Assembly: GCF_006517175.1 (NCBI RefSeq)
Contig: NZ_CP041186.1
Coordinates: 4,615,074-4,679,073 of the forward strand
Source of the DNA: Persicimonas caeni
GTDB taxonomy: Bacteria; Myxococcota_A; Bradymonadia; Bradymonadales; Bradymonadaceae
DNA: 64,000 bases
Direction of reading: 5' to 3'
Position numbers and translations under genes: made by a program. Under the pieces are notes generated by a model. That model was given only the letters and a program-made list of their open reading frames with translations. It ran no database searches and had not been told where the DNA came from. This document shows, in pieces, positions 33,505 to 44,271 of the stretch; the first letter of the stretch is position 1, and every line of letters begins with the position of its first letter.

Positions 33505-33594
33505 ACGGTTACGGTTACGGCTACGGCTACGGTTTCGGTTACGGTTACGGCTACGGTCACGGTTACGGTTACGGTTACGGTCGCGGTTACGGTC
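33505..33594 (+). repeat. Hexanucleotide tandem array
   Basis: Fifteen contiguous units of ACGGTT with variants ACGGCT, TCGGTT, ACGGTC and GCGGTT. It lies about 70 bases upstream of the Sel1 lipoprotein start, where length change could alter promoter spacing. Low-complexity arrays of this type mutate by slippage. Confidence 0.85.
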
Positions 33595-34849: not shown

Positions 34850-35225
34850 GTCGTGGTGACAAATTGGCCGTCGAGGTGACCAGAGTGGCCGTCGAGGTGA
34901 GCAGAGGAGTCGTCGAGGTGAGCAGAGGAGTCGTCGAGGTGGTCGAAAAGGTCGTCGAGGTGGTCGAGAAGGTCGTCGTGGTGACAAATTGGCCGTCGTG
35001 ATGAGCAGAGGAGTCGTCGAGGTGAGCAGAGTGGCCGTCGAGGTGAGCAGAGTGGCCGTCGAGGTGAGCAGAGTGGCCGTCGAGGTGAGCAGAGGAGTCG
35101 TCGAGGTGGTCGAAAAGGTCGTCGAGGTGAGCAGAGGAGTCGTCGTGATGAGCAGAGGAGTCGTCGAGGTGAGCAGAGCGGCCGTCGAGGTGAGCAGAGC
35201 GGCCGTCGAGGTGAGCAGAGCGGCC
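34850..35225 (+). repeat. 21-bp VNTR, 18 units
   Basis: Eighteen contiguous units opening with GTCG[A/T]GGTG or GTCGTGATG: sixteen of 21 bases and two of 20 bases (GTCGTGGTGACAAATTGGCC). Unit variants end in GGAGTC, GTGGCC, GCGGCC or AAGGTC and appear in blocks, as expected from local duplication. The array stops 17 bases before the stop codon of the AMMECR1 gene. The 20-base units break any common reading frame. Confidence 0.9.
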
Positions 35226-35242
35226 GTCGTGGTGCCGGAGCG

Positions 35243-35917
35243 TCAGCTGCCGTCGAATTCGTCGACCTCGTAGACGAGCGCGCGCATCTCGTCGGACCAG
35301 TAGTCTTGAGGCAGGCCGGCCTTGCGTTTGACGTGGCGTACGAAGAGCGCCGGGTCGGGGCATTGGTCCCACACCGACGGCAGCAGCGTGCCGCGCTGGC
35401 CGTGGCAGGTGAGCACCAGCCCGTGCACGCCCGGCTCGAGCGCGGCGACCAGGTCGGCTTCGCTCGTCACGTCGAGCTCGCGCAGGGGGCTGAGCACCGA
35501 GATGTGCAGGCTGAGGCGCTCGAGGTCGTCGGCGCTCAGCGGGTCGAAGCGCGGGTCGCGAAACGCGGCCATGTAGGCGTTGTGGGCGATGTCGCGGCCG
35601 AGGGGGCGCCGGGCTTCGAGGGAGCCGATGCACCCGGCGAGTTCGCCGTCGAGGTAGACGGTCACGAAGGTGGCGCGCGGCTCGGCCAGATACCCCTCGA
35701 GCTCGGCGTCGCGCAGGTGCAGCGGCTCGTCGTAGTGCACCCCGCGGGTTATGGAGGCGACGGCCAGCTCGACGAGCTCGGCCCGCTGCGCCTCGGTGAG
35801 CCGTTCTTGCTGGCTCTGTTGGTCTTGGCTCTGTTGGTCTTGGCTCTGTTGGTCTTGGCTCTGTTGGTCTTGGCTCTGTTGGTCTTGGCGAGTGCGGTCG
35901 ACAGTCTCGACGGCCAT
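35243..35917 (-). CDS. AMMECR1-domain protein (AmmeMemoRadiSam protein A-like)
   Basis: 224 residues. After a Gln-rich N-terminus with five SQDQQ-type repeats (about 10-36), residues 40-224 are an AMMECR1 domain: GCIGSLEARRPLGRDIAHNAYMAAF is split across the central signature, followed by DPRFDPL, ISVLSPLREL, GLVLTCHGQRGTLLPSVW and HVKRKAGLPQDYW. The related system pairs this domain with Memo and radical-SAM proteins, but neither is encoded nearby. The Gln repeat is absent from typical family members. Confidence 0.85.
   Translation of the reverse strand: MAVETVDRTRQDQQSQDQQSQDQQSQDQQSQDQQSQQERLTEAQRAELVELAVASITRGVHYDEPLHLRDAELEGYLAEPRATFVTVYLDGELAGCIGSLEARRPLGRDIAHNAYMAAFRDPRFDPLSADDLERLSLHISVLSPLRELDVTSEADLVAALEPGVHGLVLTCHGQRGTLLPSVWDQCPDPALFVRHVKRKAGLPQDYWSDEMRALVYEVDEFDGS
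35814..35888. repeat. 15-bp tandem repeat inside the AMMECR1 gene
   Basis: Five copies of a 15-base unit (CTCTGTTGGTCTTGG) encode repeated SQDQQ on the minus strand. The near-perfect copies suggest recent expansion; the unit length keeps the frame. Confidence 0.85.
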
Positions 35918-38818: not shown

Positions 38819-39973
38819 GTGAGTACACGCGGAGCAGATGATCTGGCCGACCTGCAAGAGACGGTCGGGTCGCTCCAGCAGGAGTGTGAGCAAAAGGAGC
38901 GCTTTATCGCCACCTTGGCTCACGAACTCCGCAACCCCATCACCGCCCTGCGTGCCGCCGTGCATCTGCAGGACTTGAGCGGTGACGACCCCTCCATTCG
39001 CAAAAAGACCTTCGACATCATCGCCCGGCAGACTGATCACATGGAGCGTCTCATCGACGATCTGATGGACGTCTCCCGGTTGAGCCGGGGCAAGATCAGC
39101 CTCGATACGCGCGTGCTCGATCTGACCTCGGTGGTCGCGCAGGTCTTCGTCGACCAGCAAAAGAGCTTCGACGACCTCGGCGTCGAGCTGACCGTCGAGC
39201 TCGGCGACGAGCCCATCTGGGTCGAGGGCGACGAGATGCGCTTGACTCAGGTGCTGAGCAACCTGCTCAACAACGCGCGCAAGGCGACCGAGGCGGGCGA
39301 TCGGGTGACCGTGGCGGTGCATAGTGACGCCGACGCGGTGCTCGAGGTGCGAGACACCGGCGTGGGCATGGAGAACGGGGAGGTCGAGCGCATCTTCGAC
39401 CTGTTCGCCCAGGCGGAGGCCGGCGAGCGACGCGACGGCGGGTTGGGGCTCGGGCTGGCGATCGTCAACGGCATCGTTCGTTTGCACGACGGTGAAGTCG
39501 ACGCCGAGAGCGCGGGGCCCGGGGAGGGCGCGACCTTTCGGGTGCGCTTGCCCTTGTCGACGCGGCCGCGTGCCGGCGACGAAGCGTCCGACGGCCAGAC
39601 CGTCGTGCGCGAGCGCAGCATCCTGATCGTCGAAGATGACCGCGACGTCGCCCAGCTGCTCGTCCAACTACTCGAGCTCGAGGGCCACCGCGTCGAGTTG
39701 GCCCACGACGTCGAAGAGGGGCTCGACAAGCTCAAGGCCCACACCCCCGACACCGTGCTGTGCGACCTGCACCTTCCGGGCAATCTCGACGGTCATGCGC
39801 TGTGCCGGGCGGTCAAGATCGACCCGCGCTTCGATTCGGTGCGCCTGGTGGCGATGACCGGTCTGGGCTGCAGCGAGTTGCGCGAGGCGAGCCTCGACAG
39901 CGGCTTCGACGAGCACCTGACCAAGCCCATCGATCTCGATGAGTTGCGCCGCGCGCTCAAGCCGCGCGAGTAG
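38819..39973 (+). CDS. Soluble hybrid histidine kinase with C-terminal receiver
   Basis: 384 residues, GTG start. Coiled N-terminus (1-30), HisKA with LAHELRNPITALRA (His near 35), HATPase with NLLNNARKA, DTGVGMENGE and GLGLGLAIV, then a receiver (about 262-380) with VEDDRDVAQLL, DLHLPGNLDGHA (phospho-Asp in CDLHLP) and Lys in LTKPIDL. There is no sensor domain, so input comes through a partner protein. It has no adjacent regulator gene. Confidence 0.88.
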   Translation: MSTRGADDLADLQETVGSLQQECEQKERFIATLAHELRNPITALRAAVHLQDLSGDDPSIRKKTFDIIARQTDHMERLIDDLMDVSRLSRGKISLDTRVLDLTSVVAQVFVDQQKSFDDLGVELTVELGDEPIWVEGDEMRLTQVLSNLLNNARKATEAGDRVTVAVHSDADAVLEVRDTGVGMENGEVERIFDLFAQAEAGERRDGGLGLGLAIVNGIVRLHDGEVDAESAGPGEGATFRVRLPLSTRPRAGDEASDGQTVVRERSILIVEDDRDVAQLLVQLLELEGHRVELAHDVEEGLDKLKAHTPDTVLCDLHLPGNLDGHALCRAVKIDPRFDSVRLVAMTGLGCSELREASLDSGFDEHLTKPIDLDELRRALKPRE

Positions 39974-41647: not shown

Positions 41648-41935
41648 CTAGCTCAACCCGGACAAGACCGCCAAGAGGCTCTTTTGGTCCTCGAGGGTGC
41701 CGCCGACTTTACGGCGCGGCTCGGGCTGGACGCGCACCAGAAGCGGGGTGACCAGCGCCCCGTCGCGCGCGGCGCGCCTGGGGTGCTCGGTCACGTCGAC
41801 CACTTCGACGTCGGCCTCGTGGGGTTGCAGGATATCGAGCGCCGTCTCCAGGTTGCGTCGAGCCAGGGTCGACGCACGCGAGTTGGGGGCCACATAGAGG
41901 CGCAGCTGCAGGGTCTGGTCCGACGGTTTATTCAT
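41648..41935 (-). CDS. kaiB: KaiB-family circadian clock-type protein
   Basis: 95 residues from MNKPSDQTLQLRLYVAPNS, close to cyanobacterial KaiB in length. Landmarks: LRLYVAPNSRAS (KaiB LYVAGNTP), ARRNLETALDIL, VEVVDVTEHPRRAARDGALVTPLLVRV (KaiB ILATPTL) and PEPRRKVGG (PPPVRRIIG). KaiB binds the CI ring of KaiC. The start lies in the last codons of kaiC (8-base overlap, ATGAATAA), so translation is coupled. The frame is open further upstream inside kaiC but those codons do not match the family. Confidence 0.88.
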   Translation of the reverse strand: MNKPSDQTLQLRLYVAPNSRASTLARRNLETALDILQPHEADVEVVDVTEHPRRAARDGALVTPLLVRVQPEPRRKVGGTLEDQKSLLAVLSGLS

Positions 41936-43637
41936 CGGCCTTGTCCCTGCGGGTGTGTCCCCGGCGACGTGCAAGTTCTTGGACGAAGTGCTCACGTCGC
42001 TCGCGCTGTTTACGTTGACGCTCATCGAGTTTCTCGAGCTCGGATTTACGGCGCTGTTGCTCGTGGCGAAGCGCCTCCAACTTCATGTCGATTTCGTCGA
42101 GAGCCAGGCGCTCGTTTTGCTTCTCGAGCTCCAGCTCTTCGACTTGGCGGGCCGCCTCGGCCTTTTCTCGCTGCTCTTTCTCCCAGCGAAGCGTGCCCAT
42201 CAAGACTTCGCCACCGCCGGTGTAGACCGGAGCGAGAGTCACGCCGTCGTCGTCGAGCAACAATTCGCGCACCTGGTTGGAGTGCTTCATGCCGCGCGAT
42301 TTGATGACCGACAGGGCCCGATTCCGCTCGCCACCCTGCTTCTGGTAGGACAGGTGCAGCCAGGTGTCCGCGATCGTCGAAAGTCCTACCGGTGTGGCTT
42401 CGATCTCGGGCGACTTCGTCGCCAGTAGCGTCGTACTTACGATAGTAATGCCCGCGCTTTTGGCGAAGTCAATCAAGCGCAGCGCGGCATCCTCGGCGGC
42501 CTGGGTGTCCCCGAAGTGGGTGAACACCGAGATGGGGTCGATGACAAGATTCTCGGCCCCGTGGTCCTGAGCGGCGTTGATAATCTCGACGACGTGGGTC
42601 TCGGGGCTGTAACCGCGGGCGCGCAGCGACAACATGTCGATGACCCCTTCGGTCACAAAGGGCTCGAGGTCCAGGCCGACCGACTGCAGGTTGCGCACGA
42701 TCTGGTTGGCGTCCTCGTCAAAGCTCACATACAGGGTTCGCTCGCCGTTCTGCGCGGCCTTCCGGGTGAAGGCTCCTGCCAGCGTGGTCTTGGCGGTGCC
42801 CGGCGCCCCGGAGATGAGCACCGAGGTGCCGCGGAAATACCCGCCGTCCATCATGGCGTCGAGGCGATCGACGCCCGTCGAGACGCGCTCGGTGGAGACC
42901 TGGTGGTCGATCTCGAAGCGCGAGCCCACGGCCACGTCGATGCCGCCGCTGGTGATCGTGAACGGAAACTCGTTCGACGAGTGCGACGTGCCGCGGTACT
43001 TGGACACGCGCATCCCGCGCATGGCGGTGTGCCCGACCAGGTTGTGGCTGAGCTGGACCACACAGTCGGCCATGAACTGCAGCTGGTCGTAGTGCGGGTC
43101 GATCTCGGCGCCCTGCGGGTTCGTCTTGGCTGTGATCACACCGCTGATGCCGTTTTGGAGCACCCAGTCTCGCAGGCGGAACACCTCGCGGCGCACCGCC
43201 AGCGGATTGTCCAAGAAGCCGAGCAACACGTCGATGCCGTCGAAGACGACCCGCCGCGCCCCCGTCTCCTCGACCTGCGCGCTCAGAATCGCCAAAAGGC
43301 CTTGCAGGTCGAAGTCGGTGCCGTCGAGCACCGTGTTTCGAAGCTGGGCGTCCATGAACGTGACTTCGTCGGGGCTCTCGAAGCCGCCCGGCCACGCAAA
43401 CCCGGCCGCGTTCATCTTGATATGCTCGGCGTTCTCCTCGAACGCCACCAAGATACCCGGCTCGTCGTAGTCGAGCGCCCCGTTGACCAGCGTCTGCAGG
43501 GCGAATACGGTCTTGCCGGCACCGGGACCGCCCATCACCACAGTGACACGGTTCTTCGGCAGACCCCCTTCGGTGATCTCGTCGAAGCCGCGCATCCCCG
43601 TCGGTGTTTTCTGGATGCGAGTGATATTCTGGTTCAC
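41928..43637 (-). CDS. kaiC: KaiC-family double-RecA ATPase with C-terminal coiled coil
   Basis: 569 residues, GTG start with AGGAG 7 bases upstream. Two RecA-like halves: CI with Walker A GGPGAGKT (36-43) and catalytic Glu67-Glu68; CII with GAPGTAKT (277-284) and an acidic Asp307-Glu308 pair where clock KaiC has two Glu. The autophosphorylation dyad appears conserved as Ser420-Thr421 in PVGLSTIADT, with Thr415 at the position of cyanobacterial Thr426. After about residue 485, the A-loop and tail that bind KaiA are replaced by about 80 residues of charged coiled coil (EKAEAARQVEELELEKQNER). No kaiA is present. A non-cyanobacterial KaiBC pair, probably in stress timing or signalling (inference). 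Confidence 0.9.
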   Translation of the reverse strand: MNQNITRIQKTPTGMRGFDEITEGGLPKNRVTVVMGGPGAGKTVFALQTLVNGALDYDEPGILVAFEENAEHIKMNAAGFAWPGGFESPDEVTFMDAQLRNTVLDGTDFDLQGLLAILSAQVEETGARRVVFDGIDVLLGFLDNPLAVRREVFRLRDWVLQNGISGVITAKTNPQGAEIDPHYDQLQFMADCVVQLSHNLVGHTAMRGMRVSKYRGTSHSSNEFPFTITSGGIDVAVGSRFEIDHQVSTERVSTGVDRLDAMMDGGYFRGTSVLISGAPGTAKTTLAGAFTRKAAQNGERTLYVSFDEDANQIVRNLQSVGLDLEPFVTEGVIDMLSLRARGYSPETHVVEIINAAQDHGAENLVIDPISVFTHFGDTQAAEDAALRLIDFAKSAGITIVSTTLLATKSPEIEATPVGLSTIADTWLHLSYQKQGGERNRALSVIKSRGMKHSNQVRELLLDDDGVTLAPVYTGGGEVLMGTLRWEKEQREKAEAARQVEELELEKQNERLALDEIDMKLEALRHEQQRRKSELEKLDERQRKQRERREHFVQELARRRGHTRRDKADE

Positions 43638-43836: not shown

Positions 43837-44271
43837 ATGAAATGGATTCAAGAAGAAGATGGTCGCGTTGTGCTCAGTTTGGAGCGCGGTGAGACCCTGC
43901 GCGAAAACGTAGAATCGGTGGCGGCTGAGCTCGGCTTCAAGGCCGCCAAGGTCTCGGCCATCGGCGCCCTCGAAGATCCGGAATTGGGCTGCTACGAGCT
44001 CGACGACCGCGAGTATATCCACCGCACGTTCGACGGCATCTGGGAGCTCTTGTCGCTCGAGGGCAATATCAGCCTGCTCGACGGCGAGCCCTTCTTGCAC
44101 GCGCATTGCTCGATTTCGGGCCACGACTTCAAGGTGTTGGGCGGGCATCTGTTCGACGCCAAGGTCGGCGTGGTCGTCGAGATGTTCATCGAGCCGTTCG
44201 ACACGCCGCTGCCGCGCATTCCCTGCGAGGCGATCGGGTTGCCGCGTTGGGAGCCGGGCGAAGAAGCGTGA
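43837..44271 (+). CDS. PPC/DUF296 domain protein
   Basis: 144 residues. The order GETLRENVESVAAELGFKAA, VSAIGALEDPELG, ELLSLEGNISLLDG, HAHCSIS and VLGGHLFDAKVGVVVEMFI matches the PPC (plant and prokaryote conserved) domain, a trimeric fold with a His-based metal site (HAH, GGHL). Bacterial members are free-standing and their function is unclear; plant versions occur in AT-hook DNA-binding proteins. It is divergent from kaiC and shares its promoter region. Confidence 0.85.
   Translation: MKWIQEEDGRVVLSLERGETLRENVESVAAELGFKAAKVSAIGALEDPELGCYELDDREYIHRTFDGIWELLSLEGNISLLDGEPFLHAHCSISGHDFKVLGGHLFDAKVGVVVEMFIEPFDTPLPRIPCEAIGLPRWEPGEEA

Follow-up and report, generated by a model that had tools for sequence, protein, structure and literature searches.

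It is an open question how timekeeping works in clocks that lack KaiA, of which a single example has been well studied structurally. A kaiB-kaiC pair in the genome of Persicimonas caeni raises the question of which type of Kai system it represents and what its KaiC, with a long C-terminal extension and deviating catalytic residues, could do. The pair lies in a stretch of 64,000 nucleotides (the window, to which all coordinates refer) and comprises the following elements:

41928..43637, minus strand: kaiC, 569 amino acids, GTG start; two RecA/KaiC ATPase domains (CI and CII) followed by a C-terminal coil
41648..41935, minus strand: kaiB, 95 amino acids, with an ATG start inside the end of kaiC
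41928..41935, minus strand: overlap of the kaiC stop and the kaiB start, 8 nt, read directly as ATGAATAA
43644..43648, minus strand: AGGAG Shine-Dalgarno sequence, 6 nt upstream of the kaiC GTG

The larger gene encodes a KaiC, which matches PF06745 in two stretches (profile search, E 2.5e-87), fits the curated KaiC model NF006799 with two KaiC/RecA domains (488 bits, cut-off 408) and has its best solved relative in KaiC of Rhodobacter (Cereibacter) sphaeroides (KaiC_RS, PDB 8dba), to which it aligns over residues 8-563, coil included (E 7.7e-115). The smaller gene product contains a KaiB domain well above the Pfam cut-off (PF07689, E 7.2e-16, 58.1 bits against 27) and a predicted thioredoxin-like fold, its AlphaFold model matching KaiC-bound KaiB_RS best (8fwj_M) and other thioredoxin-like KaiB structures besides. 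The genome (8.05 Mb, one contig) contains no other KaiB above the cut-off. Besides the query, its KaiC-like matches are one more distant ATPase (27%) and a weaker one spanning CII only. KaiA (PF07688) was not found anywhere in this genome by a search that does detect KaiA in S. elongatus, which separates the locus from the KaiABC oscillator. The preliminary description of this DNA, a pair of kaiB and kaiC without kaiA that overlap by 8 bases, is thus borne out in its coordinates, frames and lengths. Scans for promoters and terminators returned nothing. A PCC/DUF296 gene (PF03479; window 43837-44271) is oriented divergently from kaiC and is not conserved beside kaiC in the clade described below.

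The C-terminal extension of KaiC forms a coiled coil at the following positions:

41958..42197, minus strand: C-terminal coiled coil, residues 481-560, one predicted helix, supported by a heptad test
41961..41963, minus strand: Arg559, located at the tip of the coil and almost invariant among coil-type KaiC (18/18 coil-bearing clade members, 91/94 KaiC2)

This coil is Pro-free and charged: over 85 residues, Lys/Arg and Asp/Glu occur 24 times each. Its best heptad register has 11 large hydrophobic residues, a number reached by none of 500 shuffled sequences. AlphaFold predicts the KaiC monomer with a mean pLDDT of 84 and residues 481-560 as a single helix, whose ten-residue blocks score about 81-90 as far as residue 550; the final block scores 69. 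Composition, heptad test and model therefore agree with the charged C-terminal coil of some 80 residues first noted, a single-helix extension beyond the 50 residues taken as the minimum for a KaiC of the KaiC_RS type. A two-register signature like the partner swap of R. sphaeroides KaiC was also sought; half the positions of the second-best register belong to the best one as well, so that counts of this kind cannot show such a signature.

The four top PDB matches of the KaiC model in a Foldseek search are all KaiC_RS structures (8fwi, 8fwj, 8db3 and 8dba). Counted from the end of CII, the heptad phase is identical in 7/8 scored members of the query clade and 86/88 KaiC2 (93/96 in total). Glu526, like Arg559, is near-invariant in coil-type KaiC, and the position of Trp426 is occupied by Trp in 113/113 coil-type KaiC and by Ile in 22/22 KaiC1/3. 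The shared phase, the near-invariant Glu526 and Arg559 and the common Trp426 indicate that the query coil is homologous to KaiC2 coils. A novel fusion or replacement was accordingly rejected, as KaiC_RS and some 90 relatives carry the coil in the same phase. In R. sphaeroides, the coil joins two hexamers as a dodecamer via a 12-helix bundle, shifts its register with phosphorylation and accelerates dephosphorylation, and Trp419 forms part of the allosteric path (PDB 8DBA/8FWI; Nature 2023, PMC10076222). The initial proposal of a self-regulatory coil hence holds for this homologue, where such a role has been demonstrated (PMC10076222), and for the same reason the KaiA-less, coil-ended architecture is already known and not novel, striking though it had seemed: the coil is the usual tail of the family. 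Nor is the A-loop and tail region missing or replaced, as had been stated, since the segment after CII is present but divergent, as in R. sphaeroides KaiC.

With the R. sphaeroides system (KaiC2-type; PDB 8DBA, 8DB3, 8FWI and 8FWJ), the locus shares two KaiC domains, the order kaiC-kaiB without kaiA, a coil of about 80 residues in the same heptad phase, a Trp in the network between coil and phosphosites and, as predicted for the query, a thioredoxin-like KaiB. The two KaiC proteins are about 38% identical and differ in the second phosphosite (Thr in the query, Ser in R. sphaeroides), the CII P-loop (GAPGTAKT versus GVAGAGKS) and the CII acidic pair (Asp-Glu versus Glu-Glu). S. elongatus KaiC (KaiC1) has in common with the query the CI/CII fold, the Ser-Thr dyad, the Lys/Arg contacts to ATP and the equivalent of Thr426 (Thr415); however, its R385 corresponds to His374, Ile follows the dyad where the query has Trp, E318 is Asp in the query, and a KaiA-binding tail takes the place of the coil; KaiA itself is absent from the query system.

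The residues that set this KaiC apart lie in CII rather than in the coil; the motif positions of both domains are:

43509..43532, minus strand: CI Walker A, residues 36-43, GGPGAGKT, canonical
43434..43439, minus strand: CI catalytic pair Glu67-Glu68, conserved
42786..42809, minus strand: CII P-loop, residues 277-284, GAPGTAKT, where Ala282 replaces the Gly of Walker A; a marker of the clade
42714..42719, minus strand: CII acidic pair Asp307-Glu308, equivalent to S. elongatus E318-E319
42375..42380, minus strand: phospho-dyad Ser420-Thr421, aligned with S. elongatus Ser431-Thr432
42360..42362, minus strand: Trp426, equivalent to KaiC_RS Trp419 in the coil-to-phosphosite network (role from PMC10076222)

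A pattern search of the query KaiC finds the Walker A motif in CI only, and the catalytic Glu pair is likewise complete in CI only. The dyad Ser420-Thr421 and the Asp-Glu pair of CII were correctly described at the outset, but both Walker A motifs were said to be kept, which is wrong for CII, and the significance of the Asp was missed; the real peculiarities of this protein are the Gly-to-Ala change in the CII P-loop and a substitution of the catalytic Glu seen across the clade. In S. elongatus, the hydroxyls of the phosphosites are activated by Glu318, and the rhythm is lost in E318A as well as in E318D, although loss of phosphoryl transfer was reported for E318A only and not for E318D (PMC2777353). 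A natural Asp at this position together with a changed P-loop would thus predict an altered phosphotransfer, and both changes could be compensated elsewhere.

The phylogenetic placement of the query was investigated with relatives taken from 80 GTDB loci and found by searching genomes across several phyla; the segments around the P-loop, the acidic pair and the phosphosites of CII had been removed from the alignment. The query falls into a clade of 19 members (support 100/100) that is distinct from KaiC2 (95/81) and KaiC1/3 (100/100). Members derive from Gemmatimonadota, Opitutae, Latescibacterota and the window's own phylum, and one more clade genome had been sampled from the phylum to which a cyanobacterial record belongs. 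A KaiC of the query type coexists with a KaiC2 or KaiC3 in several genomes, so that the type is a lineage of its own instead of a local variant. The Ser-Ser dyad that defines the KaiC2 subgroup (PMC5520375) is Ser-Thr in the query, and the second phosphosite is Thr in 19/19 clade members and Ser in 92/94 KaiC2. A KaiC3 identity was rejected as well, since the Ser-Thr dyad is common to both but the tree separates the clade from KaiC1/3. At the P-loop Gly position the clade has Ala (18 members) or Ser (one), whereas Gly is found in 116/116 KaiC2 and KaiC1/3; at the Glu318 position it has Asp in 16 members and Glu, Gly and Asn in one each, whereas Glu is present in 116/116 sequences outside. Two clade members have Ser at the Glu319 position, and the canonical CI motifs are retained throughout.

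These data bear on whether the locus might simply be a KaiC2-type KaiBC system in which the substitutions make no functional difference. The domain order, coil, Trp426, KaiB neighbor and association with histidine kinases (see below) are as in R. sphaeroides and would fit that reading, which we nevertheless consider very unlikely, given the fully supported separation from KaiC2 on columns that exclude the deviating segments and the loss of rhythm in S. elongatus with Asp at the same position. Neither the clade nor its CII substitutions were found described in the literature searched, although a published KaiC tree may hold members in supplements that lay outside that search, and nothing usable was found on KaiC in Gemmatimonadota or Bradymonadales.

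Three further observations concern the relatives. One clade KaiC (L197 / L211 5776-7272; 498 amino acids) ends without a coil and has Thr-Thr phosphosites, possibly owing to loss or to an assembly fault. Opitutae genomes carrying the query type also encode KaiC2-type proteins (L158, L159) with Thr-Ala (VTAPMDAWL) in place of Ser-Ser. Two coil-less KaiC (L126 and L127, from genomes G117 and G046) with the phosphosite segment SGLGF[VS]SLVD are placed beside the query clade on a long branch.

Whether CII of the clade is still a kinase is not assured by its sequence, as no Gly precedes the Lys of its Walker A and two members have lost the E319 equivalent. CII might accordingly have lost its autokinase and bind nucleotide only, CI serving as the ATPase and CII with the coil as a structural or sensing scaffold read by KaiB and a histidine kinase. 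The substitution of the P-loop Gly in all 19 members and the variable Glu318 and Glu319 positions are consistent with such a loss, but we regard it as unlikely, because Ser/Thr420, Thr421 and the Lys/Arg residues contacting the gamma-phosphate are kept in 19/19 members and the conservation of CII equals or exceeds that of CI. The ratio of CII to CI identity is 1.04 in the clade compared with 0.85 in KaiC2, 51 CII positions are invariant, and K283, D367, K446 and R448 are among the CII residues without exception in the clade, all of which points to constraint; decay of CII was therefore rejected. Furthermore, MCM helicases are active with a GDPxxAKS-type Walker A, which also counts against a lost autokinase; a search of the literature on the MCM P-loop motif yielded nothing usable. 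The absence of decay favors a working, re-tuned CII over an inactive one.

We therefore interpret the locus as encoding a KaiB-KaiC timer or switch that needs no KaiA and belongs to the coiled-coil type known from R. sphaeroides, a reading which, with the mechanism that follows, we hold to be reasonably probable. For the activity, assembly and output of this KaiC we infer that the protein would form a double-ring hexamer of CI and CII, and that the C-terminal helices of two hexamers would zip into a 12-helix bundle to give a dodecamer. With the A-loop held out, CII would need no KaiA to autophosphorylate on Thr421 and Ser420, and the register of the coil, coupled via Trp426 and CII, would set the rate of dephosphorylation. 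The putatively thioredoxin-like KaiB would bind ADP-bound CI, as has been reported for R. sphaeroides (PMC10076222), and speed ATP hydrolysis, so that under a falling ATP/ADP ratio it could drive KaiC back to the unphosphorylated state; output would be through a histidine kinase. Given the changed CII chemistry (P-loop, Glu318 position and Thr phosphosite), phosphotransfer or dephosphorylation is likely altered, and a coil-regulated, KaiB-dependent phospho-switch or hourglass is expected and not a self-sustained, free-running clock. A more far-reaching proposal, which we put forward tentatively as a possibility, is that these coil-tailed KaiC proteins constitute a branch of their own, apparently not described before and paired with a distinct branch of KaiB, in which a re-tuned CII serves a KaiB-reset switch or hourglass through a phosphorylation mechanism unlike that of all studied KaiC.

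In support of a KaiB-KaiC timer or switch, kaiB adjoins kaiC in 17/19 clade members and was not found for the other two (L003/L152 and L206/L192). A quick tree of KaiB splits along the same line as that of KaiC; no other KaiB in it has as long a branch as that of the query. In nine clade members the gene after kaiB encodes a histidine kinase, those scanned containing PAS domains and often a receiver domain, and R. sphaeroides has the gene order kaiC-kaiB-kinase. Unlike there, no histidine kinase directly follows kaiB of the query. The kinase nearest to the pair is a hybrid HisKA-HATPase-receiver protein (38819-39973, other strand), which is a candidate partner only and shares 28-34% identity with kaiB-linked kinases, as histidine kinases generally do. 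One clade genome (G381, locus L003) encodes a coil-tailed KaiC with a sigma-54 response regulator upstream, and no KaiB was found in that genome. The lack of an adjacent kinase and the long KaiB branch in the query, like the coil-less L197 and the KaiB-less G381, weigh against the timer or switch.

The presence of the pair is sporadic: in 20 other genomes sampled from the same family, a close coil-tailed orthologue was identified in one only (G006). Such a distribution would suit a stress-response module without a timing function, as proposed for Legionella KaiBC (summarized in PMC5520375), and the KaiB model also matches thioredoxin-like L. pneumophila KaiB (4kun; TM about 0.82, 31% identity, a comparison of KaiB only). 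Legionella KaiC, however, is a KaiC2 homologue that autophosphorylates (PMC5520375), so that a stress role is compatible with the same biochemistry; as an explanation that dispenses with timing, it appears improbable to us, and the timer or switch remains our preferred reading. The coil occurs on both sides of the split between the query branch and KaiC2. Having kept the coil and KaiB while carrying a natural equivalent of E318D and a non-canonical P-loop in CII, this sister branch allows a natural test of the KaiC chemistry that is needed for a timer as opposed to a self-sustained oscillator.

Elsewhere in the window, three tandem repeats were identified. A 6-bp repeat (ACGGTT, 14.8 copies) occupies 33505-33593, and a 21-bp repeat at 34866-35234 (17.6 copies, 81% matches) gives rise to repetitive ORFs in several frames. 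A 15-bp repeat at 35811-35889 (5.3 identical copies) lies within the ORF at 35917-35243, where it encodes a DQQSQ repeat close to the N-terminus.
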